A stretch of 64,000 bases of DNA from Naasia sp. SYSU D00057. Lineage in GTDB: Bacteria; Actinomycetota; Actinomycetes; Actinomycetales; Microbacteriaceae. The stretch is from contig NZ_JAFMSZ010000001.1 in NCBI RefSeq assembly GCF_017916505.1, positions 806,001 through 870,000 on the forward strand. Reading direction: 5' to 3'. Positions 1,620-40,406 of the stretch are shown piece after piece. How positions within the stretch are numbered: position 1 is the stretch's first letter; each line of letters begins with the position of its first letter. The notes below the pieces were generated by a model that searched no databases, had not been told where the DNA came from, and was given only the letters and a program-made list of their open reading frames with translations. Made by a program: the position numbers and the translations under genes.

Positions 1620-2291
1620 CTACACCGTCTCCACGAGCTTCGCGAAGACGACCCGATTGTCGTCGTAGCGCCGGGCCTCCTTGACGTACCCGTCGCACGT
1701 GATGAGCCGCAGCTCGGAGCCGGGGACCGGGAAGTAGACGTCCTGCGTGGGGAACTCGGCCTTCACGAAACTCTCGTTGCGATACACCTCGAACACAGCC
1801 GTCCGTCCGTCCTGACGCGTGACCGAGACGCGGTCGCCCGGCACCAGGTCGCGAAGGCGGTAGAAGACACCGCTCGCGTCGGTCAGCGAGTTGACGTGGC
1901 CGAGGAGGATCGCCGGGCCGGCGGAACCGGGGGTGGACGAGCCGTCGTACCAGCTCGCGGGCGACCCGTCGTCGCCGGGCGGAACATCGAGGGTGCCGTC
2001 CTCGCGCAGCCCGGTGTGCAGCAGATCGGACTCCACGCCGAGCGCGGGGATGCTGAGGTGCACCGGCGCAGACGGCTCCAAGGCGAGCGCCACTTCGGGC
2101 GGCTGGACCACCTCGGGTTCCGGCGCGGGAGTCGCGGATGGAGTGGCCGAGGGCGGAGCAGCGGGGATCGACGCCGCCGGCCGAGGCGCGGCGGGGTCCG
2201 AGCCGGCCGCCGAGCAGCCGGTCCCGAGGACGAGGAGGGCCGCCACCCCCGCCGTGAGGCGAAGGTGGCGGCCCGTTCCGGAGAACTCCAT
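1620..2291 (-). CDS. class F sortase, lipoprotein-like
   Basis: Cysteine transpeptidase of the sortase fold, expected outside the membrane. With this start it has 223 residues: a signal with lipobox-like GTGC (Cys26), a Pro/Ala/Ser-rich linker to ~75, then the sortase domain. His132 (GHVNS), Cys199 (LITC) and an Arg pair at 207-208 before YDDN give the His-Cys-Arg set. It sits 16 bases after an exported protein with a C-terminal membrane helix, which may be its substrate or partner, though that protein shows no clear LPXTG motif. A longer in-frame start at 2348 would overlap the upstream gene. No clear Shine-Dalgarno site is seen here, so coupled translation is likely. Confidence 0.85.
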   Translation of the reverse strand: MEFSGTGRHLRLTAGVAALLVLGTGCSAAGSDPAAPRPAASIPAAPPSATPSATPAPEPEVVQPPEVALALEPSAPVHLSIPALGVESDLLHTGLREDGTLDVPPGDDGSPASWYDGSSTPGSAGPAILLGHVNSLTDASGVFYRLRDLVPGDRVSVTRQDGRTAVFEVYRNESFVKAEFPTQDVYFPVPGSELRLITCDGYVKEARRYDDNRVVFAKLVETV

Positions 2292-2307
2292 CGGAGGTGT
2301 GCGCTGC

Positions 2308-3078
2308 CTAGCGGCCGGCCGTCGCGGAACGGCGCACGAGGAGCGCACCGCCGCCTACCGCGGCCGCCGCGAGCACGCCACCCAGGGCGAGCATGCCCAT
2401 GTCGGAGCCACCGGTGGTCTCCGCGGTGGTCACGCCGGTGGCGGCACCACCGGCGGGCATCACGTCGAGCGAGCCGCACAGGGCGGGCGAGGTCGCCGCG
2501 AGCGGCAGCTCCGGGACGAGGTCACTCGGCGAGGAGGTGCCGGCCTCAGGCTGGGTCGCCGGGTCGAGGCCGTGCACCACGACGACGGCCGTTCCGGCCT
2601 CGAGCGCGTCCTGGGTCTCCTGGTTCAGCTCGAACGTCTCCTTGTACTGGGTGGTGGAGCCGGACGGGGCGACCGTGAGGTCGACGCCCGTCTCGGGGCC
2701 CTTACCCGCGTCGCCGAGGGACAGCGTGGTGCCGATGCCCCCGTAGAACGGTGCGCCCTCCGTGGTGCTGATGATGCCGTCGCCGTTGGTGTCCGCGGAC
2801 ATGTCAGGGCATGTGCCCTGAGCTCCGACGTGGATGTGCTGCACGTGGGGGTACGGGCTGCCGTTGAACGTCTCCGCGAGGCCGGACGCGTTGAGGGTGA
2901 CGGTCGCCATGGTGCCGTCGACCTCGACCCACACCTCGCCGGACGCACCGCTGTTGTTGATCGCGTCGAGGCTCGTGCCATAGGAGCCCGAGGCGTGATC
3001 CGCCATCGCCGGCCCGGCCGACAGTGCGACGAGTCCGAGAGCGAGGGCGGGCGAGAAAAGCAGGATCTTCTTGTTCAT
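2308..3078 (-). CDS. exported CHRD-like protein with C-terminal membrane anchor
   Basis: A 256-residue envelope protein. The N terminus (MNKKILLF, hydrophobic stretch, AMA-DH) is a clear signal peptide and GGAGG lies 8 bases before this ATG, which decides it over longer in-frame starts. The middle resembles CHRD-type domains (HVQHIHVG, an acidic DTNGDGI loop that could bind calcium). The C terminus has a helix of about 20 hydrophobic residues followed by RRSATAGR, a cell-wall-anchoring layout but without a recognisable LPXTG. It is first of a two-gene unit with the class F sortase. Biochemical role is unknown. Confidence 0.8.
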   Translation of the reverse strand: MNKKILLFSPALALGLVALSAGPAMADHASGSYGTSLDAINNSGASGEVWVEVDGTMATVTLNASGLAETFNGSPYPHVQHIHVGAQGTCPDMSADTNGDGIISTTEGAPFYGGIGTTLSLGDAGKGPETGVDLTVAPSGSTTQYKETFELNQETQDALEAGTAVVVVHGLDPATQPEAGTSSPSDLVPELPLAATSPALCGSLDVMPAGGAATGVTTAETTGGSDMGMLALGGVLAAAAVGGGALLVRRSATAGR

Positions 3079-3278
3079 GAGGGATGCCTCCAATGGCATT
3101 TCTCCGAGCCCGGGGCGGACTCTCAGTGGGTCGATGCGCAGGATTCGGAGCTTCGGGAACAGGCGCTTGGTCACGCGGTGGATTCCCAGGAAAGGGGTCT
3201 CAGCCAATCCTTCGGCCGCGCGCCGCCGAATCCGTCGCAAGCACCGGAGGCCGAACGGGCCGGAACAGGAGACCGCGA

Positions 3279-3902
3279 ATGGACGCCAGGGGATCTTTCG
3301 CGGCGGTCGCCGTCGTCGCCTCGCTGCTGCTGACCGGTTGCAGCACCGCGGTCGCCCAGGGGGCGGAAGCGCCGATGCCGTCGCACACCATGCCGGGCGG
3401 CGGCGTGATGCCCGGCTCGCAGCATGGCGCGCACTCCCCCACCGACGATGCCGGCGCGGCGCGGGGGCCTTCGGAGGCGGCGCTGATGGTCTGCGACGGC
3501 CAGGTGCAGGAGTCGATGGGCGCCATCCTCGGCACAGGTCGGCAGCCGGACCCCGACTGGGGATGGGACGACCCGGAGTTCCGCTGCACGTATCGCGTCG
3601 ACGGCCTCCCCCTGATCCTGTCCGTCCACGACGTCACGGACACCGCCGAGGGTGAGGCCTACTTCGCCGAGCTTCGGCGAAGCCTTCCGGGAGCGGCCGA
3701 GATCGAGGGGCTGGCGGCGCTCGGGATGCCGTCCTTCTGGACGCAGGACGGGATCGTCGCCTTCCTGCGCGACGGGAAGACCCTGACGGTCGATGCCACC
3801 GCCCTGCCGAACGGCCTGGGTCCGGGTGGCGACCGAACCCCGCAGCAGATCGCGTACGCGGTCGCCTCGGCCGTGCTGGTCTGCTGGACCGAGCACGACT
3901 GA
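3279..3902 (+). CDS. predicted lipoprotein of unknown function
   Basis: 207 residues with a lipoprotein signal (hydrophobic run then LLLTGC) and a His/Met/Pro/Gly-rich segment (~30-55) that may be flexible or bind metal. A compact domain follows with paired cysteines in MVCDGQ and FRCTYR. AGGAG lies 7-8 bases before the chosen ATG; longer in-frame starts have no such site and lack the signal. It diverges from the CHRD/sortase pair with about 200 bases between. I do not recognise the domain. Confidence 0.75.
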   Translation: MDARGSFAAVAVVASLLLTGCSTAVAQGAEAPMPSHTMPGGGVMPGSQHGAHSPTDDAGAARGPSEAALMVCDGQVQESMGAILGTGRQPDPDWGWDDPEFRCTYRVDGLPLILSVHDVTDTAEGEAYFAELRRSLPGAAEIEGLAALGMPSFWTQDGIVAFLRDGKTLTVDATALPNGLGPGGDRTPQQIAYAVASAVLVCWTEHD

Positions 3903-7616: not shown

Positions 7617-8285
7617 TCACTCGGTTCCGAGTGCCCTGATCCTCGCTTCGGCGATCTCGACGAGTTTCTGCCCTTCGAACGCATCCAGGCGCTTCGCCTT
7701 GACGAGCGCGTTCACCTGGGCGATGAAGGCCCTGTACGCCGAGATGGCCCGTCGCGGGTCTCCCTCATCGGCGGCGTCCTGCGCCCGGTCTAGTGTCGAT
7801 GTCAGCGAGCTGCCGGCCGCAGCGCTGAGCGCGCCGCCTGCGACCAGAGCCTGGACTGCCTCCTGGCCTCCGCAGGTGAAGTCGACGGTCTGTGACCCGA
7901 TGAGCACGTCGTCATCGTCTTCGAACGGATTCGTCAGAGAGTCGCCGTCGACGTCCAGGTAGGCCGTGATGGTCAGGGGATAGGCCCACGCTGGCGGCGC
8001 CGCAGAACCAGACGCGTCCCCGTTGGCGTCGGTCACCAATCCGACCTGCCGGTTGTACACCGAATCGGGCTGCGTCCCAACAACCCAGACGAAAACGAGT
8101 CCAGTCTCGGGTGTGGCGTCAGTCACCTCGTACTCGATCAACTGGCGGAGCTGCCCGAACTGCACCTCGCAGGAGCCCGTCGTCAGGGAGAACGTCCCGG
8201 CCGCGGCCGCTGCCGGTGGCGTGGCGAGGACCGGCAGCGCTACAGCCCCGGCGAGCGCAGCCGCAGCCGCAGGCATCTTCTTCAT
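7617..8285 (-). CDS. secreted protein with C-terminal FIMAH-like domain
   Basis: 222 residues. MKKMPAAAAALAGAVALP...ATPPAAAA is a signal peptide and AGGAGG lies about 9 bases before the ATG, fixing the start. The middle has two cysteines (GSCEV, DFTCGG) around an Asp-rich segment (FEDDDDV). The last ~60 residues (LDRAQDAADEGDPRRAISAY to ARIRAL) look like a FIMAH domain, a helical module seen at the C terminus of secreted actinobacterial and Firmicute proteins. Function unknown. It is the last host-type gene before the tRNA-Val direct repeat. Confidence 0.7.
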   Translation of the reverse strand: MKKMPAAAAALAGAVALPVLATPPAAAAAGTFSLTTGSCEVQFGQLRQLIEYEVTDATPETGLVFVWVVGTQPDSVYNRQVGLVTDANGDASGSAAPPAWAYPLTITAYLDVDGDSLTNPFEDDDDVLIGSQTVDFTCGGQEAVQALVAGGALSAAAGSSLTSTLDRAQDAADEGDPRRAISAYRAFIAQVNALVKAKRLDAFEGQKLVEIAEARIRALGTE

Positions 8286-8460
8286 CTCTCGGACCTCCTG
8301 CCTCGGTCGGCGCCAGGCGACTCGACGGCGCGTTAGGAGAGACATACGCCGCCGAACGCAGGCCGGTCAGGGCCGAAGGGCCGAAGAGTGCCCCGACATT
8401 GACGTGGAAGTCGGGCCCAGCCAAGAAGGCACCAAGATCAGTTGCGACCGGGGTTCTGCG

Positions 8461-8499
8461 GTGGGCCCTGAGGGACTCGAACCCCCGACATCCACGGTG
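8461..8499. repeat. 39-bp partial copy of tRNA-Val 3' end (att-like, left)
   Basis: These 39 bases are identical to 12735-12773, the 3' half of the intact tRNA-Val gene from the last anticodon base to one base past the discriminator. After one mismatch (C for T) AAA also matches, then identity ends. The copy cannot form a tRNA. A 3'-end fragment downstream of the intact gene is the usual mark of site-specific integration into a tRNA. Confidence 0.85.
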
Positions 8500-8642
8500 C
8501 AAAGTGCCGAAACGCCTGGCTGGGTGGACATTCGTGGACGGAACCGCGAGAAATCGGCGCTCTTCCGTCTACCCCTATCCAGCCAGCCCGCCGCCGTAGG
8601 CTCCTTCAGAAGGGGCCGGGGCGTCGGCCGCAGTCGCCGAAC

Positions 8643-8810
8643 GTGAAAGGTCCATGGACCTGGCGCGAGCGGGGGTGCAGCATCGGCGCGGCGGCGCGAG
8701 AGGTCGAGGTCTCGCGCACGTCGGGGAACAACTGGGCAAGCGGCTACAAGACCTACCGCGGGGGCGAGCAGGGACCTTCGCCCCTGCAGGTCACTTGGGC
8801 ACTTCCCTAG
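8643..8810 (+). pseudogene. truncated IS30-type transposase N-terminal fragment
   Basis: A 55-codon frame (GTG to TAG) whose product has WRERGCSIGAAAREVEVSR followed by TSGNNWASGYKTYRGGEQ. This is the helix-turn-helix start typical of actinobacterial IS30-family transposases (AAREVGVSR-type, then NNW.xGYK.YR). The catalytic DDE part is absent, so the fragment cannot transpose. No terminal inverted repeats are recognised. It shows earlier insertion-sequence activity beside the left repeat. Confidence 0.6.
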
Positions 8811-8894
8811 CTTCCGGGAAGTGGAGAAGACGCCGGCACCCGGCGAAGCGCGGAGGCGCGGGCGCGCGTCCCGGAAAGCTCCGGGGGCCGCACC

Positions 8895-11561
8895 GTGAGC
8901 GACACCGCTTCCAGCAGCCGTGTCCGGATCCGCACACCGGACCAGCGGTTGCGGGTGTTCGTCAGCTCCACACTCGGCGAGTTGGCGGCGGAGCGGAAGG
9001 CCGCACGACGCGCGATCGAGCGGTTATCCGCCGCCGCGGTGATGTTCGAACTCGGTGCGAGACCGCACCCGCCCCGTTCCCTCTACCGCGCCTACCTTGA
9101 GCAGAGCGACATCTTCGTCGGCATCTACTGGCAGAAGTACGGCTGGGTAGCCCCCGGGGAGACGGTCTCCGGTCTCGAAGACGAGTACAACCTCGCCCCC
9201 AGCAGGATGCCGAAACTGATGTATGTCAAAGCGGGCGACGGGCCACGCGAGCCGGGCCTGGAGAGGTTGCTGGACCGCATTCGAGACGACGACACAGCGT
9301 CCTACAAGCACTTCCGCGACGCCCGAGAACTTTCGCGACTCCTGGTCACCGACCTCGCCGTCCTGCTGGCCGAACGCTTCGATGACAGCCGCGTCCCCGC
9401 CGCTTCGTCCTCGCCCGCTCCCCCTGTTCAGGGTCGAGAGACACCCGTGACGTCATTGCCGACGCCCCTGACCGAGCTTTTCGGCCGAGAGCAGGACGTG
9501 GACGGCGTGGCCGAGATGCTCCGCTCGCCCGACATGCGACTCGTCACCCTCACCGGCCCCGGAGGCATTGGCAAGACGCGACTCGCCATCGAAGCAGCTC
9601 GCGCGCTTGCCGCCGAGGTCGGCGAAGTGGCATTCGTTCCCCTGGCTGCCGTTGACGACGCCACCCAGGTTCCGAACGCGATGGCTCATGCCCTGGGCGT
9701 CCTCGATACCGGCGATGCCCCCCTGGGGCAGAAGCTCGCGCTCTCACTGGGTAGCCGGCACATGCTGATGGTGCTCGACAACTTCGAGCAGGTTGTCGGC
9801 GCGGCACCGTTGGTGTCGCGCCTCCTCGCCGCCGCCCCTCAGCTCAAGGTCATCGTCACCAGCCGAGTGCTCCTCAGAATCGGCGGCGAGCACACCTACC
9901 AGGTGAATCCGCTCGGGCTGCCCGGTGAGGATCGCGAAGCGGACAGCCCCGCGCAGGTCCAGGCGCCCAGCGTCGACCTGTTCATCGAGCGCGCACGATC
10001 TGTCAAGCCGGACCTGGAGCTCACGGCTGAGAACTTGACTGCGATAAAGCAGATCGTCAGGCGGCTCGAGGGCGTACCGCTGGCCATCGAACTGGCCGCG
10101 GCTCGCACCAGCCTGCTGGCTCCCCCCACCCTGCTCGACCGGCTTCAACATCAGCTGCCCGTGCTGGCTGGCGGCCAGAGGGACGCTCCGGTGCGACAGC
10201 AAACGGTGCGGGACACGATCGAGTGGAGCACCCGGCTGCTGGGTGAACACGAACAGAACTTGCTCTGGCGCCTCGGTGTGTTCACCGGCCGGTTCTCGCT
10301 AAACGGCGCTGAAGCCGTCGCCGAATCCGGCGTCACGCCGTTCGACCTACTCGAAAGCCTGGTCGACGCCAGCCTGATTCGCCAGCAGGAGCGCAAGGGC
10401 GCCACATTCTTCCAACTCTTGGCGACAGTTCGCGAGTATGCCACCGAACGACTTGAGCGTCAGGGGCATCAGGCGGAGGTGCGCGACCTCCACGCCCGTT
10501 ATTACGCGAACTGGGCTCTGGCCCTCGCGCCTGATCTGACCGGGCCGCGGCAGCTGCAGACGATCACCGCCCTGTCCGACGAACAAGAGAACCTCCGGAC
10601 GGCGTTGCGTCACCTCCTCGACACTCACCAGTGGGATCTCGCAACCGAGTTGGCCGTCCGGCTCTACACCTATTGGTGGATCGCCGGCCTGCTCGGGGAA
10701 GCCCGGTCTTGGGTCAACGAGGTGATCGCCGCCGGTGAGGCGGCGTCGAAGCACAGCCGCGCCGCGGCCCTGTGGATCCGGTCGTTCCTTGGGCTCATGC
10801 TCGGGGCGGGCGAGGAAGTGGTTCGCGACCTTGACGAGAGTCTGCAGCTGCTGACCGCTTCTGGAGACAGGGACCGCCAGGCCTCCGTGCTCTCACTTCT
10901 CGGCTTCGCTTATGCGCTTTCCCACCCTGCCGAGGTGCAAAGCGGGCAGGAACTCATTCGCCAAGGGATGAGCATGATGTCCGAGGCCGGCAACACACGC
11001 CCGCCCGGCGATCTCTGGACCCAAGCCTTCAGCCCGCTGATCCCGCTCGGCCGGATCGAGCTCGCCCGGGGCAACTTCGAGGCAGCATCGGAGCTATTCG
11101 AGCAAGCTCTGCGCTTCTCCAACCAGGTAGAGGACGACTTCGCTCGCACCTTTCCTCTGAACCACCTCGGCTGGACGCGCCTGCTCGCGGGACGAGTCGC
11201 CGAGGCTGCGCCGTTGATGGAACGGCAACTGGACCTCTCGCTCGGCCTTGGCCATGAGCAGGGGGTCGCGTACGGGCTCGAGTGCTTCGTCGGCGTCGCT
11301 CACGCGCTCGGGCAAACTGAGAACGCCGGTTTGCTCTACGGAGCCGTAAGAGCCATCCGGGACCGTCTCGGGCTCGCGAACGTCAATGACGAGGCGGTTC
11401 TCCCCATCGTCGACAGCATTCGCAACAGCCCTTCGGGACCGGAGTTCGAACGGGCCGTTCAACGCGGGCGTGTCCTACCACGCGGAGAAGTCATCGCCCT
11501 GGCGCGCAAGGTGAGCTCGGCCGCAGCCGCGATGGCTCCGGCCCCCGCAGCCTCGACCTAG
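8895..11561 (+). CDS. DUF4062-STAND NTPase with TPR-like C-terminal region
   Basis: 888 residues. Residues ~18-165 are a DUF4062 domain (RVFVSSTLGEL, later IYWQKYGWV and LEDEYN). Then comes an NB-ARC/STAND ATPase: Walker A GPGGIGKT (221-228), Walker B LMVLDNFEQV (291-300), VIVTSR (319-324) and the GVP motif (393-396). The rest, ~480-870, is helical and resembles the TPR-like sensor half of AfsR/MalT-type proteins, but there is no DNA-binding domain. STAND proteins oligomerise on sensing a ligand; DUF4062 would be the effector or adaptor. A defence role is inference from architecture and island setting. GTG start with a weak ribosome site. Its stop shares the palindrome CTAG with the convergent hemerythrin gene. 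Confidence 0.85.
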   Translation: MSDTASSSRVRIRTPDQRLRVFVSSTLGELAAERKAARRAIERLSAAAVMFELGARPHPPRSLYRAYLEQSDIFVGIYWQKYGWVAPGETVSGLEDEYNLAPSRMPKLMYVKAGDGPREPGLERLLDRIRDDDTASYKHFRDARELSRLLVTDLAVLLAERFDDSRVPAASSSPAPPVQGRETPVTSLPTPLTELFGREQDVDGVAEMLRSPDMRLVTLTGPGGIGKTRLAIEAARALAAEVGEVAFVPLAAVDDATQVPNAMAHALGVLDTGDAPLGQKLALSLGSRHMLMVLDNFEQVVGAAPLVSRLLAAAPQLKVIVTSRVLLRIGGEHTYQVNPLGLPGEDREADSPAQVQAPSVDLFIERARSVKPDLELTAENLTAIKQIVRRLEGVPLAIELAAARTSLLAPPTLLDRLQHQLPVLAGGQRDAPVRQQTVRDTIEWSTRLLGEHEQNLLWRLGVFTGRFSLNGAEAVAESGVTPFDLLESLVDASLIRQQERKGATFFQLLATVREYATERLERQGHQAEVRDLHARYYANWALALAPDLTGPRQLQTITALSDEQENLRTALRHLLDTHQWDLATELAVRLYTYWWIAGLLGEARSWVNEVIAAGEAASKHSRAAALWIRSFLGLMLGAGEEVVRDLDESLQLLTASGDRDRQASVLSLLGFAYALSHPAEVQSGQELIRQGMSMMSEAGNTRPPGDLWTQAFSPLIPLGRIELARGNFEAASELFEQALRFSNQVEDDFARTFPLNHLGWTRLLAGRVAEAAPLMERQLDLSLGLGHEQGVAYGLECFVGVAHALGQTENAGLLYGAVRAIRDRLGLANVNDEAVLPIVDSIRNSPSGPEFERAVQRGRVLPRGEVIALARKVSSAAAAMAPAPAAST

Positions 11562-12265
11562 GTAGGAGAGCCGTACAAGGAGAGCCTGTGCGCGCGGTAG
11601 AGCCGCTGACCTCTTACAAGCCAGAAGAGCTTGAGCGGTGCAGGCAGGACCTCTCGTTGGAACTTCCGACGCATCTCCGGGGGCTGGCTGTCGAGGACGT
11701 GTCCGAGATAGATCAGCTGAGTTCTCACCGGCAGCGCCTTCCCAAGGATCTTCTGCGCATAGGCACCGGCAGCGTCCCACTCCTTCTGCGTCCACGTCCG
11801 TTCGATCTCGGGGAAGATCTGTTCCTCCTCCTGTCCGAGGTGAGCACCCAATGCCCCGCCGATCGCGTTCACAACTTCAGATAAGCGCTCCGTCGCCTGG
11901 TGGTCCGGCGAGGACTGCCACGATGCGACAGCGTCATCCTGCCGGTCCAGCATCTGGGCAATCTGCCGATGCTGGGCCTTCATCTGCCCGACGTGCACAG
12001 CGCAAGCGGGCACGCGGGACTCGAGCTTGTGCCAAATGGTGTCGTCTTCCGCCTGGTGGTGGTGATGGAGCATCACGGCGACCGTCGACAGGTGCGTCGC
12101 CACCGCAGCGGTCCTCATGCCGTCCTCGCTCGCACCACGAACCAAACGGGGCGCCTCACGATATAGGTGCCTGAAGGTGTTGTGGATCACCAGGACGTCG
12201 GAGGTGTCACAGCCGATCTCGGACGCCGATGGCCGGGAGCCTGTGCTGGGAAGCTTCTCAACCAT
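11558..12265 (-). CDS. hemerythrin HHE domain-containing protein
   Basis: 235 residues with a four-helix hemerythrin-like core: IHNTFRHLYRE (helix 1), LHHHHQAEDDTIW (helix 2), HVGQMKAQHRQI (helix 3) and GALGAHLGQEEEQIFPEIE (helix 4) provide the His/Glu/Asp ligands of a di-iron site. Such proteins bind O2, NO or sense redox state. The C-terminal ~70 residues are basic and amphipathic. GGAGG lies 6 bases before this ATG; a frame extending upstream to 12457 is Arg-rich noise. It overlaps the STAND gene stop by four bases, tail to tail. Confidence 0.8.
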   Translation of the reverse strand: MVEKLPSTGSRPSASEIGCDTSDVLVIHNTFRHLYREAPRLVRGASEDGMRTAAVATHLSTVAVMLHHHHQAEDDTIWHKLESRVPACAVHVGQMKAQHRQIAQMLDRQDDAVASWQSSPDHQATERLSEVVNAIGGALGAHLGQEEEQIFPEIERTWTQKEWDAAGAYAQKILGKALPVRTQLIYLGHVLDSQPPEMRRKFQREVLPAPLKLFWLVRGQRLYRAHRLSLYGSPT

Positions 12266-12590
12266 TCGATGCCTCCGTCGTCTGTTCCGCGGGCTCCGAA
12301 GTCTGCCGGAGTGCCTCGTACCGCGGGCAGGACGTAGGTCCCGGCGGCGGTATGAGCCTGCCGAAGGAGCGGGTCGACACCTCGCTGTTTCTCGTCGAGC
12401 TCCTCCTCTTCGAGCTCGCCGGTGTGGCCCTCGAAGACAATGCCGATCGGGTAACACCCGCGGGGTCCTCGGGATGCTCTCCGAGCAGGTCGGCGAAGGC
12501 GAAAAAGCAGGTCAGACTGGACATCCACCATGCCGTCGAGAATGTAGTCGACGTCATCCCCGTCGTCGTCTGCCTCACCCCCCCCCAGGA
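12258..12590 (-). pseudogene. frameshifted small ORF upstream of hemerythrin gene
   Basis: Protein-like sequence alternates between two minus frames: DVDYILDGMVDVQSDLLF, then FAFADLLGEHPEDPAG in the other frame, then CYPIGIVFEG and HTGELEEEELDEKQRGVDPL back in the first, and finally CPRYEALRQTSEPAEQTTEA in the second, ending in a TGA that overlaps the hemerythrin ATG. The switches fall near short homopolymers (TTTTT, GGG) and a run of nine G lies at the 5' end. This fits a decayed gene or sequencing errors in a gene formerly coupled to hemerythrin. Product unknown. Confidence 0.4.
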
Positions 12591-12617
12591 GGACTTGGCC
12601 AGCGCGCCTTCGCTCGC

Positions 12618-12734
12618 TTATCCAATCTCGCGATCGCCGAGGACGCGAAGCCCGACGTAGGTGTTGACGACGGCCGCCTGGGCAGAGCCGAGGAAGTCGC
12701 CAGTGGCTCCGTGCGCGTGGCGGCGCTGTCTCCT
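12618..12734 (-). other. possible gene fragment between island and tRNA-Val
   Basis: Directly downstream of the tRNA 3' end, one minus frame reads ATGDFLGSAQAAVVNTYVGL then RVLGDREIG and a TAA stop. It looks like the C terminus of a protein, but the tRNA leaves no room for the rest. It may be a remnant carried or cut by the integrated element. The support is only that it looks protein-like. Confidence 0.25.
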
Positions 12735-12773
12735 GTGGGCCCTGAGGGACTCGAACCCCCGACATCCACGGTG
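12735..12773. repeat. 39-bp direct repeat inside tRNA-Val (att-like, right)
   Basis: Identical over 39 bases to 8461-8499. It covers the 3' half of the intact tRNA-Val gene plus one base beyond the discriminator, so the element would have restored the tRNA on integration. Confidence 0.85.
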
Positions 12774-12809
12774 TAAACGTGGCGCTCTAACCAACTGAGC
12801 TAAGAGCCC
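12736..12809 (-). tRNA. tRNA-Val (anticodon UAC)
   Basis: A 74-base cloverleaf: acceptor GGGCTCT pairs with AGGGCCC, D arm GCTC/GAGC, anticodon arm CCACG-TTTACAC-CGTGG with TAC at the anticodon, T arm GGGGG-TTCGAGT-CCCTC and discriminator A. CCA is not encoded. Its 3' half is duplicated about 4.3 kb downstream, marking it as an integration site. Confidence 0.92.
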
Positions 12810-13024: not shown

Positions 13025-13510
13025 ATGGACCTCCACGACATCCCCGTCCGGACCATCGACGGCACCGAGACGACCCTCGCCCCCTTCGCGGACAAGGTGA
13101 AGCTGATCGTCAACGTCGCCTCCCGCTGCGGCCTCACTCCGCAGTACGAGAAGCTCGAGGAGCTGCAGCGCAGCTACGGCGAGCGGGGGTTCACCGTGCT
13201 CGGCTTCCCGAGCAACCAGTTCCTGCAGGAGCTCGGCACCGAGGAGGCCATCGCCGAGTACTGCTCGACCACCTGGGGCGTCACGTTCCCGATGTTCGAG
13301 AAGGTCAAGGTCAACGGCCGCAACCGGCACCCCCTCTACGAAGTGCTCACCAAGACGCCGGATGCGAGCGGCACCGCCGGCCGCGTGATGTGGAACTTCG
13401 AGAAGTTCCTCGTGACACCGGACGGCCGCGTCTCCCGCTTCCGCCCGACCACCGAGCCGGACGCGCCCGAGATCGTCGAGCTCATCGAGGCCTCCCTGCC
13501 GAGCAGCTGA
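13025..13510 (+). CDS. glutathione peroxidase family (thiol peroxidase)
   Basis: 161 residues, the normal length. Cysteine form of the GPx fold: Cys35 in NVASRCGLTPQY replaces selenocysteine, with Gln65 (FPSNQF) and Trp123 (WNFEKFLV) completing the active site. Cys80 may act as resolving cysteine, although its position is not the classical one. It reduces hydroperoxides in the cytosol, in actinobacteria probably with thioredoxin or mycothiol systems. No strong Shine-Dalgarno site precedes the ATG. A hairpin follows the stop. Confidence 0.9.
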   Translation: MDLHDIPVRTIDGTETTLAPFADKVKLIVNVASRCGLTPQYEKLEELQRSYGERGFTVLGFPSNQFLQELGTEEAIAEYCSTTWGVTFPMFEKVKVNGRNRHPLYEVLTKTPDASGTAGRVMWNFEKFLVTPDGRVSRFRPTTEPDAPEIVELIEASLPSS

Positions 13511-13539
13511 CCCGGCCGGCAGCAGCAGCCCGAAAACCA

Positions 13540-13574
13540 GAACGCCCCGGCCGGGAGACCCGGCCAGAGCGTTC
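13540..13574. terminator. hairpin between convergent GPx and DUF4190 genes
   Basis: GAACGC (13540-13545) pairs with GCGTTC (13569-13574), and inside it GGCCGGG (13549-13555) pairs with CCCGGCC (13559-13565). It sits between two convergent stop codons. Confidence 0.65.
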
Positions 13575-13590
13575 ACGGTGACGGCGGAAC

Positions 13591-14466
13591 TTACTGAATG
13601 GTCCAGATCGCGTCGTCGTAGAGGAAGCCGGGCGACGACTGGAAGGTGATGTCGGCGGGGTCGGCGACCGAGAAGGCCTCCTGCCAGGTGATCGACTGGC
13701 CGGGCAGGATCGTCGCGGTCGGCGCGAGGCCGATGTTGTTCGCCGAGTCGAAGATCGCCGTCGCCTCGGCGCCGCCGGAGGTCACCTGCGAGAACGACAG
13801 CGGCTCGAGCGGCTCCTCGCTGTTGTTGGTGAGCGTCAGGTCGAAGAGCACGGCGCTCTGGCCCGGCTCCGCCGACGCGGTCTCGCTCGGGGTGAACGGG
13901 ACGGGCGCGCTGACCGTCATCTCGACGCCGTCGCTCCACGCCATCGTCTCGCCGAGGCCGAGCACCAGCGTGTCGGCGGACCCGTCCGCGGCCTCGTCGT
14001 CGGTCGCGGCCTCATCCTCGGCCGGGCCCTGGACGCTCGGGGCTGCCGACTCGATGGCATCGTTCACCGAGTTGACGATGGCCGTCGTGTAGACGATCGA
14101 GAGCACGATCGAGAGGATCAGCGCGACACCGGAGACGATGAGGCCCGCGATCGCGATGCCCTTCCTGCGGCCCTTGAGCACGAGGGCGATGATCCCGAGC
14201 ACGACGCCGACGAACGCGAGGAAGGCGCCGAAGTAGCTGACGAACGGGATGACGCCGAAGACGAGGGCGACGATCCCGACGATGAGGGCGGCGATGCCGA
14301 GGCCGTTGGTGCGGGGTCCGGACGCATCCGGCTGACCCGGCGCCTTGCCGTACACCGGCTGCGGCGGAGTCTGCGCGTACGCCGGCTCGGCCGGCGGGGG
14401 GAACGCGGAGGTCGGCACCGCGGCGGACGGCGGGGTCGGCGGGACAGGCGGCTGCGAATCAGTCAT
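13591..14466 (-). CDS. DUF4190/DUF4352-type membrane protein
   Basis: 291 residues: a Pro/Ala-rich cytoplasmic N terminus (~1-50), two membrane segments (GIAALIVGIVALVFGVIPFV then FLAFVGVVLGIIALVL, DUF4190-like), a third helix (IAGLIVSGVALILSIVLSIV), then an extracellular domain from ~155 with the immunoglobulin-like DUF4352 pattern (VLFDLTLTNNSEEPLEP). Such proteins are common in actinobacteria. They are probably envelope proteins whose outer domain binds an unknown partner. No operon partner is evident. Confidence 0.75.
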   Translation of the reverse strand: MTDSQPPVPPTPPSAAVPTSAFPPPAEPAYAQTPPQPVYGKAPGQPDASGPRTNGLGIAALIVGIVALVFGVIPFVSYFGAFLAFVGVVLGIIALVLKGRRKGIAIAGLIVSGVALILSIVLSIVYTTAIVNSVNDAIESAAPSVQGPAEDEAATDDEAADGSADTLVLGLGETMAWSDGVEMTVSAPVPFTPSETASAEPGQSAVLFDLTLTNNSEEPLEPLSFSQVTSGGAEATAIFDSANNIGLAPTATILPGQSITWQEAFSVADPADITFQSSPGFLYDDAIWTIQ

Positions 14467-25993: not shown

Positions 25994-27931
25994 TTATTCG
26001 CCCGCGCGCCAGAGCTCGAGCGCGGGCACGTCGGCCGGCTCGAAGCCGAACACCTGGCCGTAGAACGAGAGCGCTGCCTCGCGGGCGCGGATGCGGGTCT
26101 CGATCTTCCGGAACCCGTGCGACTCGCCCTCGAAGGCGAGGTACGCGTGCGGGATGCCCTTGCGCACGAGCCCGTCGCGGAAGCGCTCCGACTGGGCAGG
26201 CGGTACGACGGGGTCGTCGAGGCCCTGCAGGAGCAGCACCGGGCAGTCGAGCCCGTCGACGTGGTTGAGGGGCGAGCGCTCGTCGTACACCGCCTGCGCC
26301 TCCGGCAGCGGGCCGACGAGCCCGTCGGTGTACCGGGCCTCGAAGTCGTGCGTGTCCTCGGCGAGGGCCGTGAGGTCGGCGACCCCGTACAGCGAGACGC
26401 CGCAGGCGAACACGTCGGTCTTGGTGAGCGCGGAGAGCACCGTCCAGCCGCCGGCGGAGCCGCCCTCGATCCCGAGCCGCGCCGGATCGGCGAGCCCGGC
26501 GTCGGCGAGCCCACGGACCGCGGTGACGACGTCCTCGACGTCCACGACGCCCCACTGACCCTTGAGCCGCTCGCGGTACTCGCGGCCGTAGCCGGTGGAG
26601 CCGCCGTAGTTGACGTCCACCACGCCGATCCCCCGGCTCGTGTAGTACGCGAACACGAGGTTCACCGATGCGGTGGTACGGGTCGTGGGGCCGCCGTGCA
26701 CGAACGCGACGAAGGGCGGCAGCTCACCGTCCGGAGCGCTGAAGTGCGGGTTGCGGGGCGGATAGACGACGGCGTGGACCTCCCGCTCGCCGGAGAAGGT
26801 GCGCTCCTCGGCGCGCGGCAGCAGGCCGGCCTCGGGCAGGGCGTCGTAGTCGAGGCGGACGTCGCGCAGTTCCCCGGTGGCGAGGTCGAGCTCCCGGGCG
26901 CCGCCGACGAGCGCCGCGCTGCCTCCGTCGAGGAGCAGGCGGCCCGGTGCCGCGTCGAGCAGCTCGATCGTGGTGAGCGGAAGGTCGAGGACGCGCGGCT
27001 CTTCCCCGCCGGCGGGCAGCACCTCGAGCCGGTCCGCGCCGAGCGTCGACACCAGGGCGAGGTCGCCGCCCGGCAGGGGCAGGTACCAGTCGCGGCCCAG
27101 GTTCCAGAGGGGGCCGCCCGTCTCCCGCGCCTGCTCGAGCAGCGGTGTGACGGCGCCGCCGTCGAGGTCGACCCGGACGGGGTTCCACCAGCCGCTGCGA
27201 TCGGTGACGGCGTACAGCGCTCGGTCGCCGTCCCACTCGGGCTGGAGCACCGACTCGTCGGGGCCGCCGAGAAGGGTCCGCCACTCGGCCACGCGCTCGC
27301 CGTCGAGCTCGCCGACCCGCAGCTCGGTGCCGTCCCACGGCATCTGCGGGTGGTTCCAGGCGATCCAGGCGAGGCGCCGGCCGTCCGGGGAGAATCGCGG
27401 ATAGGCGAGGAAATCGCTGCCGGCGACGACCGACACGATCGCCTCCGGATCGGACGCCGCGCGTCCGTCGAGCGGGACGAGCACGATGTCGCGGCTGACC
27501 GCGCCGTCCTCGTGCCGCTCGCGCACCGCGACGACCCGGTCGCCCCGAACACGGAGGTCGCCGAAGCGGTCACGCGCATCCTCGGGCGTGAGCGGCGCGG
27601 GCTCCGCACCGGGACGGAGCACGTGGATGCGCTGATCGGAGAACTGGACGAACACCAGGTCGCCGTCGTCGGTCGCCGTCCAGGCGCCGCCGCCGTACTC
27701 GTGCACGCGGCTGCGGGCGTTCCAGGGTGCGGGCAGCACCGGCTCCGGCTCGCCGTCGCGCCCGGCGCGGAAGATGCCGTATCGGCCCCCCTCGGCGGCA
27801 CGCAGCTCGGCCCACCACACCTCGCCGCCGACGTAGCGGGCTCCCGACACGGGGTGGGAGCCGGCGGCGACGTCCGCCGCGGTGAGGGGCGAGGCCCAGG
27901 TGCCGAAGGGGGCGACGGTGCGGTCGGTCAT
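25994..27931 (-). CDS. S9 family (prolyl oligopeptidase-type) serine peptidase
   Basis: 645 residues: an N-terminal beta-propeller (~1-385, repeated WD-like RFSPDGRRLAW motifs) that restricts access, and a C-terminal alpha/beta hydrolase domain. Ser492 in GIEGGSAGGW is the nucleophile, with Asp in GLDDPVVPP and His in EGESHGF completing the triad. It cleaves short peptides or acyl-aminoacyl ends, in the cytosol (no signal peptide). TACGCT lies six bases before the ATG and no ribosome site is seen, fitting a leaderless transcript. Confidence 0.92.
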   Translation of the reverse strand: MTDRTVAPFGTWASPLTAADVAAGSHPVSGARYVGGEVWWAELRAAEGGRYGIFRAGRDGEPEPVLPAPWNARSRVHEYGGGAWTATDDGDLVFVQFSDQRIHVLRPGAEPAPLTPEDARDRFGDLRVRGDRVVAVRERHEDGAVSRDIVLVPLDGRAASDPEAIVSVVAGSDFLAYPRFSPDGRRLAWIAWNHPQMPWDGTELRVGELDGERVAEWRTLLGGPDESVLQPEWDGDRALYAVTDRSGWWNPVRVDLDGGAVTPLLEQARETGGPLWNLGRDWYLPLPGGDLALVSTLGADRLEVLPAGGEEPRVLDLPLTTIELLDAAPGRLLLDGGSAALVGGARELDLATGELRDVRLDYDALPEAGLLPRAEERTFSGEREVHAVVYPPRNPHFSAPDGELPPFVAFVHGGPTTRTTASVNLVFAYYTSRGIGVVDVNYGGSTGYGREYRERLKGQWGVVDVEDVVTAVRGLADAGLADPARLGIEGGSAGGWTVLSALTKTDVFACGVSLYGVADLTALAEDTHDFEARYTDGLVGPLPEAQAVYDERSPLNHVDGLDCPVLLLQGLDDPVVPPAQSERFRDGLVRKGIPHAYLAFEGESHGFRKIETRIRAREAALSFYGQVFGFEPADVPALELWRAGE

Positions 27932-27937
27932 CGTTCC

Positions 27938-27943
27938 AGCGTA
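27938..27943 (-). promoter_or_regulatory. -10-like hexamer, S9 peptidase (leaderless)
   Basis: TACGCT on the minus strand, exactly six bases before the ATG, with no Shine-Dalgarno sequence. Matches the TAnnnT -10 pattern of leaderless actinobacterial genes. Confidence 0.5.
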
Positions 27944-27956
27944 TGGGCGGGGCCGG

Positions 27957-29612
27957 TCAAGCCTGGCCGTAGTCGTCGACCACGGCGACGTCGAGCGGGA
28001 AGTCGACGGGGAACCCGCCGAACATCAGCCGGCCCGCGGCGCCCGCCGCCTCCCGGACGGCAGTGGCCACGTCGGCCGCGAGGGGCGCCGGCGTGTGCAC
28101 GAGCACCTCGTCGTGCAGGAAGTAGACCAGCTCGGGGCGCCGGCCGGCGACGGGCTCGAGCGCCGTCAGGCGGCGGCGCAGCTCGGCAAGCCAGCACAGA
28201 GCCCACTCCGCCGCGGTCCCCTGCACGACGAAGTTGCGGGAGAACCGGCCCCGCTCGCGAGCCTGCGCCCGGGCGCGGCGCTCCTCGTTCGGCGACGCAT
28301 CCGCGTCGGACGCCGCCGACTGAGCCGCACGCCAGGACGCGCCCGCGACGCCGGAGCTCCGCCCGAGCCGGGTGGTGACGGCCTCGCCCCGCTCCCCCGA
28401 GCGCGCGGCCTCCTCGACGAGCCCGATGGCGCGCGGGAAGGCGCGCGCGAGGCGCGGCAGCAGCCGGCCGCCCTGCCCTGCCGTGGCGCCGTAGATCGCG
28501 CCGAGCATCGCGTACTTCGCCGAGTTCCGGTCCGGCACCGCCCCGGTGGCGACGATGCCCTCGTACAGGTCGCCCGCACGTCCGGCGCGGGCCATGTCGG
28601 TGTCTCCGGCGAGAGCCGCGAGCACGCGCGGCTCCAGCTGCGCCGCGTCGGCGACGACGAGCTTCCAGCCGGGGTCGGCCACGACGGCGGAGCGCAGCTG
28701 CTTGGGCAGCTGCAGCGCCCCGCCTCCGCGTGCGGCCCAGCGTCCGCTCGGCACGCCGCCGGGCAAGAAGTCGGCCCGGAAGCGGCCGTCCACCACCCAG
28801 GTGTCGAGCCACGCCCAGCCGTTGGCGCCCAGCAGGCGCGCCCGCTTCTTGTAGTCGAGCAGCGGCCCGATCGCGGGATGCTCGAGCCGGCGCAGCTCGG
28901 CGGACCGGGTGGTGCTCACGACGAGCCCCGCGGCGCGGAGCGCGCCGAGCACCTCCTGCGGCGAGTCCGGGTTGAGCATCGGCGCCCCGAGCGCGCTTCG
29001 GATCTCGCGCGCGAGCTCCTCCAGCCGCCGCGGGCGCATCCCCGCCGGCACCCGCGGGCCCAGCAGATCGGCGAGGAGCGCCTCGTGCCGCTCCGCGCTC
29101 CAGGGCAGCCCCGCATGCCGCATCTCCGCGGCGGCCAGCGCGCCAGCGGACTCCGCGGCGAGCAGGAGGCGGATGCGGCCCGGCTCGGCGGCGCCTGCGA
29201 CGGCGTCGAGCTGGAGCCGCAGCTCGGCGAGAGGGTCGACCTCGGAGGCGGCCGGCGCGACGTCGAACAGCGTCTGCGCCGACTCGGGGCCGTGCAGCGG
29301 CGACTCACCGTCGAGGGCGTCGAGGGGCGCGCGGGCGAGCGCGCTGCCGCTCGTCAACGTCGAGCCGCGCAGGATCGCACGGCAGAGGCGCAGGTCGTGG
29401 CACCGCTCGACGCGGATGCCTGCCCGAAGCAGCGGCGGGTAGGAGACGGCGGTGTCCTGCCACACCCAGCGGACGCCGGCCTGAGCGGGATCCGCCACGA
29501 AGGCGGCGTACTCGTCGTCCGTCAGCTCGACCGGATCCGCGAGCGCCGTGCCCGCATCGTCGGTGCGGGTGACGAGCACCCCGCCCGAGGAGGGCGCCAC
29601 GACGACGAGCAT
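27957..29612 (-). CDS. DNA polymerase I-like (family A) protein, exonuclease-polymerase type
   Basis: 551 residues, much shorter than PolA and lacking the 5' nuclease. The polymerase half has motif A (VVADAAQLEPRVLA, ~319-332), motif B (RNSAKYAMLGAIYG, 362-375) and motif C (FLHDEVLV, His500-Asp501-Glu502). The N-terminal ~200 residues correspond to a degenerate 3'-5' exonuclease-like region without evident DEDD residues. This actinobacterial family is usually named bifunctional 3'-5' exonuclease/DNA polymerase; its role, perhaps repair, is not established. CAGACT lies six bases before the ATG. Its 3' end stops 25 bases before the S9 gene start. Confidence 0.88.
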   Translation of the reverse strand: MLVVVAPSSGGVLVTRTDDAGTALADPVELTDDEYAAFVADPAQAGVRWVWQDTAVSYPPLLRAGIRVERCHDLRLCRAILRGSTLTSGSALARAPLDALDGESPLHGPESAQTLFDVAPAASEVDPLAELRLQLDAVAGAAEPGRIRLLLAAESAGALAAAEMRHAGLPWSAERHEALLADLLGPRVPAGMRPRRLEELAREIRSALGAPMLNPDSPQEVLGALRAAGLVVSTTRSAELRRLEHPAIGPLLDYKKRARLLGANGWAWLDTWVVDGRFRADFLPGGVPSGRWAARGGGALQLPKQLRSAVVADPGWKLVVADAAQLEPRVLAALAGDTDMARAGRAGDLYEGIVATGAVPDRNSAKYAMLGAIYGATAGQGGRLLPRLARAFPRAIGLVEEAARSGERGEAVTTRLGRSSGVAGASWRAAQSAASDADASPNEERRARAQARERGRFSRNFVVQGTAAEWALCWLAELRRRLTALEPVAGRRPELVYFLHDEVLVHTPAPLAADVATAVREAAGAAGRLMFGGFPVDFPLDVAVVDDYGQA

Positions 29613-29667
29613 CGACTCAGTCTGCCTCCTGCGTCCGACGTCCCCCCGTCGGACGCACGACGTGCGG

Positions 29668-29705
29668 CCGGCTCGGGTGGTGCTCCGAAGCGCCGCCCGA
29701 GCCGG
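29668..29705 (-). terminator. hairpin after BrkB-family gene
   Basis: CCGGCTCGGG (29668-29677) pairs with CCCGAGCCGG (29696-29705). It lies 15 bases past the stop of the leftward BrkB gene and separates it from the polymerase gene. Confidence 0.65.
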
Positions 29706-29720
29706 ATCACACGGACGGGA

Positions 29721-30869
29721 CTAGTCCCGCTTGTTGGCGCGGACCGCAGCCTCGTGGCGGCCGATGCGCTGGCCGTCGTCGTTCTTGCCACCGGAATCGC
29801 CGCCGGCGTCGCCCGAGCTGCGGGCGGCCTCCTCACGGATCTTGCGACCCTCCGCGACGTCCTTCTCCTCCTTGTCCGCGTTCTTCGCGGACTTCTTCGC
29901 ATCCCGCGGCGGGAGCTGGATGTCCTCCTCGGCCGCGATGCCGCCGCGCAGCTGGCGGCCGCGCTCGAGCTCCGCGTCGAGCTCCGCGCCGAACAGCAGC
30001 GCGAGGTTCGCGATCCAGAGCCAGAGAAGGAAGATCACGACGCCGGCGAGCGAGCCGTAGTTCTTCGCGTAGTTGGAGAAGGTGGTCACGTAGAAGGCGA
30101 AGCCGACCGACGCGATCACGAGGACCAGCAGCGCGACCAGCGCGCCGACGCTCATCCAGCGGAACTTCGGCTGCTTCACGTTCGGCGTCGCGTAGTAGAG
30201 GATCGCGACCATCAGCACGAGGATCAGGGCGATGACCGGCCACTTGGCGATCTCCCACACCGTCTGCACGGCGCCGCCGAGCCCGATCGCGTTGCCGATC
30301 GCTTCGGTGACCGGTCCCGAGATGACGAGCATCAGGACGACGATCAGGATCATTACGATGCCGATCACGGTCACCAGCAGCTGCATCGGCTTGAGCTTCA
30401 GGAAGGTGCGGCCCTCGTCGATCTCGTAGATGCGGTTCATCGCGCGGGTGAACGCGCCGACGTAGCCGGACGCCGACCAGATTGCGAGCACGATGCCGGA
30501 GATGAGGGCGAAGCCCGAGGCGGGGGAGTTCACGAAGCCCTGGATGGGTCCCTCGAGCACGCGCAGGGCGTCGGGCGGCGCGACGCTGCCGAGCACGCCC
30601 ATCAGCGCGTCGACCGACTGCTGGCCCTGGCCGAAGACGCCGAGGAGCGAGATCAGGGCGATCAGCGCGGGGAAGATCGAGAGGACCGAGTAGTAGGTCA
30701 GCGCGGCGGCGATGTCAGTGCACTGGTCCGACGTGAACTCGCGCAGCGTCTTGCGGAGGGTGTACTTCCAGCCGGACGCGCCCATCTCCTTGAGGGAGTC
30801 GGGCTTCCGGGGGTCTTCAGGTGACGGCGCGTTCTGCAGACGCTCTGCGGCGCCGATGTTGTCCGACAT
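29721..30869 (-). CDS. YihY/BrkB family membrane protein
   Basis: 382 residues. After a soluble start (to ~50) come six membrane helices to ~310, with the family segments FTSDQCTDIAAALTYYSVLS and AIWSASGYVGAFTRAMNRIY, then a highly charged Lys/Glu/Asp C-terminal tail. The family, once misnamed ribonuclease BN, is of uncertain function, possibly envelope transport. It stands between the polymerase gene and the envelope operon, each side with its own hairpin. Confidence 0.9.
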   Translation of the reverse strand: MSDNIGAAERLQNAPSPEDPRKPDSLKEMGASGWKYTLRKTLREFTSDQCTDIAAALTYYSVLSIFPALIALISLLGVFGQGQQSVDALMGVLGSVAPPDALRVLEGPIQGFVNSPASGFALISGIVLAIWSASGYVGAFTRAMNRIYEIDEGRTFLKLKPMQLLVTVIGIVMILIVVLMLVISGPVTEAIGNAIGLGGAVQTVWEIAKWPVIALILVLMVAILYYATPNVKQPKFRWMSVGALVALLVLVIASVGFAFYVTTFSNYAKNYGSLAGVVIFLLWLWIANLALLFGAELDAELERGRQLRGGIAAEEDIQLPPRDAKKSAKNADKEEKDVAEGRKIREEAARSSGDAGGDSGGKNDDGQRIGRHEAAVRANKRD

Positions 30870-38351: not shown

Positions 38352-39140
38352 TCAGGAGGACTGGAGCTGGCCCCGCACGATGGAGTCGCCCGAGTGGGTC
38401 GGGTCGCCGTCGAAGGGCTCCTCCGAGACGTCCACGAGGTCGTACCGGGACGTGTCGATGCCGGCCGGCACCGAGAACGTTCCCGACGTGCCGTCGAGGA
38501 CGCCGAGGCTCACCAGCTCCGTCGCATCGGAGGTGATGAGCCACACCTCGCGGTAGCCCTCGTCAGTCCCGGGCGCCTCGAGTGTCACCTGGACCTGGCG
38601 CGCGCCGGTTCGGGTCTCCTCCAGCTCGGCGGTGCCGGCCGCGCCGCTCCAACCCGGGAACGGGTCGAGCTCCGCCGTAGCGAGCACCGCCGCGGGCGCA
38701 GGCCGCAGCAGCTGCCAGACGGTCACCCCTCCACCGATGACGAGCAGCACCACGGCCACGGCCGCCAAGGCGAGCATCCACGCGCGGCGCGGTCGTGCGG
38801 TCGGACGCTGCCTCGGGGCGGCATCGGCGGCGGGGCGCTCCGCGGGCACCGAAGCGACGGGCGCCTCAGGCGGAGTCGCCGACGCCGCTGCCGCGGGCAC
38901 TCCCGGCAGCGTCGCATCCTGCAGCTCGAGCTCCTCCGCAATCCGGGTCCAGACCCGGGCCGGAGCGGGCAGGAGGTCGCCGGCGCCGAGGGCGCTGCGG
39001 CCGACCGTCGCCGTGCGACGGAGGTTCGCGAGCTCCGCCCGGCAGGCGGCGCAGTCGGCGACGTGCGCCCGCTCCTCGGGTGACGCGACGTCCTCGCCGA
39101 GCGCGAGCAGCGCGAGGACGTCAGGGTCGACGTGCGGCAT
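38352..39140 (-). CDS. anti-sigma factor, RskA-like
   Basis: 262 residues. A cytoplasmic zinc-binding anti-sigma domain with H26-x3-C30-x2-C33 (HVADCAACR), an Ala/Pro linker, one membrane helix at ~119-141 (MLALAAVAVVLLVIGGGVT) and an extracellular RskA-type domain (YREVWLITSDATELVSLGVL). It should hold the ECF sigma factor inactive and release it by regulated proteolysis. Its ATG lies 20 bases inside the sigma gene, so the two are coupled. Last gene of a four-gene operon. Confidence 0.9.
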   Translation of the reverse strand: MPHVDPDVLALLALGEDVASPEERAHVADCAACRAELANLRRTATVGRSALGAGDLLPAPARVWTRIAEELELQDATLPGVPAAAASATPPEAPVASVPAERPAADAAPRQRPTARPRRAWMLALAAVAVVLLVIGGGVTVWQLLRPAPAAVLATAELDPFPGWSGAAGTAELEETRTGARQVQVTLEAPGTDEGYREVWLITSDATELVSLGVLDGTSGTFSVPAGIDTSRYDLVDVSEEPFDGDPTHSGDSIVRGQLQSS

Positions 39141-39684
39141 CGGTCACCTCCAGTCGGGAGCGCAGGCGCTGCAGGCTGCGGCGGATGTGGCTCTTCACCG
39201 TGCCGAGGGGCATGCCGAGCCGTGTCGCGATCTCCGCGTGCGTGAGGTCGTCGAAGAATGCCAGGTGCATCACCTTCTGTGCGTCCGGCTCGAGCCGGGA
39301 GATCTCGTCGGCGAGGAGCAGGGAGTCGGCCAGATCCACCGGCTCCTCGGCGTACTCCTCGGTGCGCCCGGTCGCCGCCAGCTGCTCCTGCAGGCGGCGG
39401 ATCTTCGCTCGCGCGTCGTGGGTGTCGGCGATCTTGTTCTTGGCGATGCCGACGAGCCAGGCGGAGATCCGGGCCCGGTCGGGGTCGAAGCCGGCGCGGC
39501 CGGTCCAGGCGGCCACGAACGTCTTCTGGGTCACGTCCTCAGCATCGCCCACGTCGCCGAGGGATCGGACCGCGAGGGTGTAGACGAGCGACGACCAGCG
39601 GGCATACACGGCTGCGAGGGCCTGCTCGTCGCCGGCACGGAACGCCGCTTCGACGGCGCGCTCGTCTGCGTCGTCGTCGCTCAT
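39121..39684 (-). CDS. ECF-type RNA polymerase sigma factor
   Basis: 187 residues, two domains: sigma-2 (~15-95, with GDAEDVTQKTFVAAW) and sigma-4 (~128-182, with LEPDAQKVMHLAFFDDLTHA and GTVKSHIRRSLQRLR). SigK/ECF19-like by its pairing with an RskA-type anti-sigma. GAGGAG lies six bases before the ATG. It follows the sortase gene by 36 bases, so the sigma is probably made from the same transcript as the exported DUF4397 protein, which may be one of its own targets. Confidence 0.92.
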   Translation of the reverse strand: MSDDDADERAVEAAFRAGDEQALAAVYARWSSLVYTLAVRSLGDVGDAEDVTQKTFVAAWTGRAGFDPDRARISAWLVGIAKNKIADTHDARAKIRRLQEQLAATGRTEEYAEEPVDLADSLLLADEISRLEPDAQKVMHLAFFDDLTHAEIATRLGMPLGTVKSHIRRSLQRLRSRLEVTDAARRP

Positions 39685-39720
39685 GAGGTTCTCCTCGGGC
39701 GATACGTCATCGTCGTCGCC

Positions 39721-40368: not shown

Positions 40369-40406
40369 CACCGCTCCTCCTCCCCCTTGTCCTGTCCTTT
40401 GCTCCG

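Follow-up and report, generated by a model that had tools for sequence, protein, structure and literature searches.

The window, a 64,000-nucleotide stretch of the genome of Naasia sp. SYSU D00057, raises the question of how a 4.3-kb segment (positions 8461–12773) came to lie between two copies of the 3' end of the gene for tRNA-Val(UAC), and what this segment carries. It is probably the remnant of an integrative element that had inserted at the tRNA-Val(UAC) 3' end and has lost its integrase, and in this respect it resembles a cis-mobilizable element (CIME).

The intact tRNA-Val(UAC) gene is located at 12735–12809 on the minus strand (ARAGORN; Rfam tRNA, 69.7 bits), and its 3' part, 12735–12777, constitutes one copy of the repeat. 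The second copy is a displaced 3' fragment at 8461–8499, also on the minus strand, which is identical to 12735–12773 at 39 of 39 positions. The perfect 39-bp repeat named in the original prediction is thus confirmed at both places, and none would be expected in 100 shuffles. Extended to 43 bp (8461–8503 and 12735–12777), the copies agree at 42 bases, the sole difference being C at 8500 and T at 12774; in this form the repeat begins with the first of the seven anticodon-loop bases and extends to the tRNA 3' end. The displaced fragment, read here as the distal attachment (att) site, has the same orientation as the intact gene and lies on its 3' side, an arrangement typical for tRNA-anchored islands. 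Many unrelated copies of the 39-bp sequence elsewhere in the genome would have argued against insertion; at up to three mismatches it occurs in just these two places.

The tRNA-Val loci were compared in 11 of the 78 relatives searched, namely, all eight relatives of the genus and genomes G031, G017 and G029 (the window genome itself is G000 in these comparisons). Integrase-coding DNA directly adjoins the same tRNA-Val in two of the eight genus relatives: in G007, the DNA at the tRNA-Val 3' end encodes a tyrosine integrase running toward the tRNA, with a PF00589 match, and in G005 only the last part of an integrase is present before the contig ends, with no PF00589 match there. A search with the G007 integrase against 199 genomes of the family at E ≤ 1e-60, a sample evidently not including G007 and G005, detected three integrases (G118, G225 and G040). 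The integrase of G118, which belongs to another genus of the same family, is 83% identical to that of G007 and is located beside tRNA-Val(tac); the integrase of G225 (51%) is located beside tRNA-Val(cac), and the G040 locus contains no tRNA within the 4 kb scanned.

In G118, a copy of the 3' part of the tRNA is located at a distance of 14,986 bp, giving a 43-bp repeat with 42 of 43 bases in agreement, the same start in the anticodon loop and the same tRNA 3' end as in the window. The segment and an integrase-bearing element at the same tRNA isoacceptor have their repeat boundaries in common. Together with the integrases at this tRNA in G007 and G005, this agreement supports the integrase-mediated insertion suggested by the original prediction, for which it is the strongest single argument, coming from one element. 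The two elements differ in content: the G118 element has its integrase in two broken pieces and 18 other open reading frames (ORFs) of at least 60 aa (naive caller), and no DUF4062–NB-ARC gene is apparent among these ORFs, for which no search against the STAND family of the window gene was made. Nor was any cargo seen to be shared between the segment and the integrase-bearing loci of G007, G005 and G118. These loci suggest that the tRNA-Val(UAC) gene is used repeatedly for integration, in this genus as well as in another one of the family, with one repeat geometry. Among the genes of the 15-kb G118 element (G118:C1:1487611-1502670, L169-L173), ABC transporter, esterase-like and LuxR-like genes were noted, the names being our own reading.

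The course of events that we infer from these data is the following. An integrative element would have entered the tRNA-Val(UAC) 3' end by recombination through a tyrosine integrase, within or close to the anticodon loop; the tRNA 3' part carried by the element would have rebuilt the complete tRNA at 12735–12809, and the original 3' part of the host would have been displaced to 8461. Any transfer genes would then have disappeared from the element, as would its integrase, which is expected beside the tRNA; both att-like ends would have been retained, and the remaining cargo is a STAND protein with an N-terminal DUF4062 and a hemerythrin protein.

Both cargo genes are present as open ORFs, in agreement with the original prediction. 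The gene at 8895–11561 on the plus strand encodes an 888-aa DUF4062 + NB-ARC + TPR-like STAND protein, recognised by Pfam, phmmer against PDB and an alignment of 19 proteins; the gene at 11558–12265 on the minus strand encodes a hemerythrin-domain protein of 235 aa, counted from the ATG at 12265 (Pfam Hemerythrin, 7e-14 with a longer frame). The incomplete gene at 8661–8768 on the plus strand is a remnant of the N-terminus of an IS30-type transposase, with 60–75% amino acid identity over 32–36 residues to five plasmid loci (annotated as IS30 family transposase in two cases and without annotation in three); the IS30 fragment of the original prediction is accordingly real, but short, at these 32–36 residues only. 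Against NCBIfam, every match of the seven proteins compared was below the cut-off.

The left interior, 8500–8660, is without a recognised gene and contains a 47-bp segment (8526–8572), 87% identical to DNA approximately 0.5 kb from tRNA-Val in genome G004 (L046:10565-10611). The 29-bp core of this segment was found in two of 79 genomes at up to three mismatches, those being the window genome and G004, and an arm-type integrase site or an insertion sequence end was rejected on this ground. Its 19-bp core has three matches in viral contigs, which lie within unrelated phage DNA and appear fortuitous. The sequence beside the displaced fragment was also considered as the end of a second element, since its alignment with the integrase-side flank in G007 is identical in 12 of 13 columns; this match is terminator-like and too weak (2 of 200 shuffles were as good, among 78 pairs compared) and was not used.

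The different base composition of the segment, also named in the original prediction, was borne out by both GC and tetranucleotide profiles, with the atypical stretch spilling past the fragment. The segment has 66.3% GC versus a window mean of 71.0% (standard deviation (SD) 1.8), and five of 240 overlapping 4.2-kb windows were as low or lower; its tetranucleotide distance is 0.267 versus 0.154 (SD 0.031), with six of the 240 as high or higher, and the six most atypical all start at 7751–9251. The GC content at third codon positions (GC3) is 0.80 for the STAND gene and 0.78 for the hemerythrin gene, compared with 0.955–0.975 for four genes right of the tRNA and 0.87–0.91 for six genes further left. 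Against the distinctiveness of the STAND value, two ORFs outside the region are as low (27882–30824 at 0.74 and 38632–40635 at 0.80), in a comparison set of 41 coding-like ORFs picked mechanically from the window (mean 0.90, SD 0.07), some of them in wrong frames.

A number of observations weigh against the insertion of an integrative element. The atypical composition is not bounded by the repeat: foreign-looking DNA extends approximately 0.85 kb beyond the fragment, where the gene of a FIMAH-domain protein (7617–8285, minus strand) has a GC3 of 0.80, similar to the STAND and hemerythrin genes. This leaves room for an earlier insertion there, by which the FIMAH gene was possibly left. No PF00589 integrase or recognised trace of one was found in or near the segment by profile search, in which serine recombinases were not included, and within these limits the absence of an integrase stated in the original prediction holds. 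The tRNA-proximal interior, 12266–12734, where an integrase would be expected, comprises approximately 470 bp without a recognised gene; neither a PF00589 match nor, for the two minus-strand frames compared, any Pfam match was detected there. In relatives, a displaced tRNA fragment was not found in the 15 kb read of G225, and the loci of the 11 relatives yielded no further 39-mer with nine mismatches or fewer, the sequence available beyond the tRNA being just 1.3 kb in G007 and 0.2 kb in G005. An empty site was not found in the nine genomes of the genus with the FIMAH gene plus the fragment as query, nor a FIMAH gene beside a single tRNA-Val: the query gave tRNA matches in all nine, the rest being at E 4e-4 or weaker apart from a 27-bp fragment in G003, and at the DNA level the FIMAH gene has weak matches alone (E 4e-4 or worse) elsewhere in these genomes. 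The synonymous divergence (dS) of aceE from the window genome to the other eight is 0.30–0.43, hence none of them is close. Furthermore, partial copies of tRNA-Val without an element between are located close to the tRNA in G003 and G006, and in G004 the closest STAND homologue (68–69% identity) is 2.5 kb away from this tRNA; the 40 kb examined there contain no tRNA fragment.

The partial copies bear on a different origin of the repeat, in which the tRNA gene was first duplicated in tandem; unrelated DNA would then have been inserted and one copy truncated, for example by IS30, so that a 3' half remained by chance. A partial copy beside the intact gene in G006, a 3' fragment 58 bp downstream of it in G003 and an IS30 remnant approximately 160 bp from the fragment in the window are consistent with this, but the remnant does not adjoin the fragment, and the break is exactly at the first anticodon-loop base, as in the integrase-bearing element of G118; such an origin is very improbable. 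The copy in G003 is an isolated 27-bp tRNA-Val 3' end (G003:C2:656112-656138, L049) and is possibly another integration scar; that in G006 (L050:9785-9839) is a partial second copy without a 3' end, with a duplicated leader sequence.

The original prediction also allowed for a satellite mobilised in trans, that is, a complete small element moved by the integrase of another. The retention of both att-like ends, the near-perfect repeat and the open cargo genes would be expected of such an element, but no matching integrase was found among the three PF00589 matches of the genome, other recombinase families not being searched. Two of these matches (156 and 135 bits) are Xer-like by score, in our reading, and the third (79 bits), the only non-Xer-like one, is located just past a tRNA-Glu/Asp/Phe cluster. 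There is likewise no second copy of the repeat elsewhere in the genome, the exact 39-mer has no match in the viral contig collection, and the IS30 scrap and the gene-poor tRNA side look like decay. The satellite thus found no support, and we regard it as highly unlikely; the alternative wording of the original prediction, a remnant, fits the two att-like ends kept and the lack of an integrase.

The G004 homologue bears on the unit that brought the STAND gene. Since it stands beside an unduplicated tRNA-Val, the STAND gene could be an older resident and not part of this insertion: it would have been located beside tRNA-Val since the common ancestor with G004, the fragment at 8461 would have arisen later by rearrangement or with a second element, and the repeat would not delimit the unit that brought the STAND gene. 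The window and G004 proteins form a clade with 100/100 support in a tree of 19 homologues (19 of the 25 strongest matches) and are encoded at the same tRNA in both genomes; the entire tRNA-Val neighbourhood is rearranged between G000 and G004, and the 47-bp segment is common to both, but in different order. Among 20 genomes searched, a related 64-aa ORF (MKVH) upstream of the STAND gene is present in both with 45% identity, in the window outside the repeat, but this match is no better than that to another G004 copy (47%).

The divergence of the genes points in the other direction. The dS of the STAND pair is 1.23, a value near saturation by NG86 that weaker codon bias can also raise, versus 0.36–0.77 for ten other G000–G004 gene pairs, which were hand-chosen and mostly near the locus; three of these are STAND paralogues at 0.58–0.59. 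The GC3 of the STAND gene is 0.80 in both genomes versus 0.85–0.98 in nine other gene pairs. The 39/39 identity of the fragment would also be improbable if it were as old as the split: under neutrality, the probability of at most one change in 43 bp since then is 0.004 to 1e-6, a calculation to be read with the fact that short repeats can undergo conversion. Separate acquisition of the STAND gene in the window genome and in G004, judged from these sequence comparisons, is favoured over ancestry and has the edge, but is not conclusive, and a resident STAND gene is rather unlikely. Conserved synteny of the STAND and hemerythrin genes in most relatives, which would have argued against insertion, was found only in part, as a STAND homologue is located at this tRNA in one of the eight genus relatives.

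Among the 19 homologues in the tree, the clade of the two proteins is confined to the vicinity of tRNA-Val in two genomes, which seem to have acquired it independently. This could be read as a minimal integrase-less defence cassette that still moves, the near-perfect repeat resulting from recent excision and re-integration by integrases of passing tRNA-Val elements; we consider such present mobility improbable.

The remnant of an integrative element, as preferred here, can be compared with known classes. With the islands described by Islander (PMC4383910) it shares the intact tRNA, the displaced 3' fragment in the right orientation and the repeat reaching into the anticodon loop; in that paper, crossovers in the anticodon loop are the larger class (2083 vs. 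1836), and an integrase gene is required in the island, so that the segment, in which none was found, is not classifiable as Islander-type on that description. The segment is closer to a CIME as outlined in PMC5704250: no integration or transfer genes were recognised, attL- and attR-like ends are kept, the integration genes probably having been lost rather than never present, and the foreign-looking DNA beyond the fragment fits accretion; a parent integrative and conjugative element or integrative and mobilizable element for the segment was not identified. The island itself is ordinary in kind. A literature search found no report of this locus, which is no proof of absence.

Domain analysis of the STAND protein showed the presence of DUF4062 (65.3 bits) and NB-ARC (26.3 bits, cut-off 23.5) with the P-loop GPGGIGKT at residue 221, while the TPR matches are below their cut-offs. 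The layout, NB-ARC with Walker A, an effector in front and repeats, at sub-threshold scores, behind, is that of STAND/NLR-like ATPases. A 2026 preprint (PMC13174449), on which the comparison with Swarozyc is based, describes DUF4062 as a family of TIR-like NADases with activity in phage defence. The sole PDB match of the 190-aa N-terminal piece is the KpSwz chain, weak (E 0.42) and over residues 16–109; in this alignment E95 pairs with chain position 82 by our count, which would be E97 with residue 16 as the start of the chain. All 19 aligned homologues have E95, so the DUF4062 with its aligned catalytic glutamate is shared with Swarozyc, as far as the weak alignment to the KpSwz chain allows. 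The deposited KpSwz chain has 326 aa, and the preprint assigns an auxiliary domain to KpSwz, whereas here DUF4062 is fused to NB-ARC and a TPR-like region; a portal-binding part was not recognised in the window protein, for which Pfam gives NB-ARC and TPR behind DUF4062.

Over the 19 proteins, the mean pairwise identity is 76% in DUF4062 but approximately 40% in the TPR-like region, as would be anticipated if a common effector were combined with diverging sensors. The cargo protein is most likely an abortive-infection phage sensor with a TIR-like NADase front domain, a prediction based on domain layout and conservation, and the family constitutes a set of candidate phage sensors. An NLR-like relative of the newly described NADase defence proteins, with the DUF4062–NB-ARC–TPR architecture, is thereby tied to the scar of a mobile element. 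A PADLOC search with five proteins gave a best E of 0.02, and the 254 plasmid records matching the STAND protein at 1e-30 include none with 80% of the query in one place.

Five members of the family with the front domain included in the match occur in the window genome; three are arranged in tandem at 1.41 Mb, and one has an internal stop in the matched stretch. A mosaic origin of the window gene, with a front domain from another paralogue, was suggested by a tblastx match and rejected, as sliding identities show no more than a general conservation of the front domain among the paralogues compared. Tandem arrays of DUF4062–NB-ARC–TPR genes are located at G000:C11:1408461-1416387 (three genes, L088) and at G004:C1:1889223-1899893 (four genes, L174), with one matched stretch per array holding a stop.

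The surroundings of tRNA-Val are unequal on its two sides. The gene aceE was found on the 5' side in all 11 loci of relatives. On the 3' side, a translated comparison of 12 genomes (0.2–30 kb each, at least 45% identity over 50 residues) revealed few stretches in common, and the window matches G004 alone, via STAND-family genes, the last match being 53 residues across the STAND start. By this comparison the 3' side has the pattern of a variable hotspot, although G007 and G005 contribute just 1.3 and 0.2 kb.

The GPx side, on which the original prediction relied as a landmark for the empty site, is present but not fixed, as GPx is located on the other side of the tRNA in G004 and G029. In the window, the sortase/CHRD-like/lipoprotein block (1620–3902) and the GPx/DUF4190-like pair (13025–14466) are located on opposite sides of tRNA-Val, and in G004 the sides are swapped with orientation kept. 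In G005 GPx shares a side with the sortase/CHRD-like/lipoprotein block, and the GPx of G029 is located 3' of the tRNA (loci L046, L087, L045 and L054; gene names by our own reading). Tandem duplication followed by reciprocal loss would explain the swap of sides between G000 and G004.

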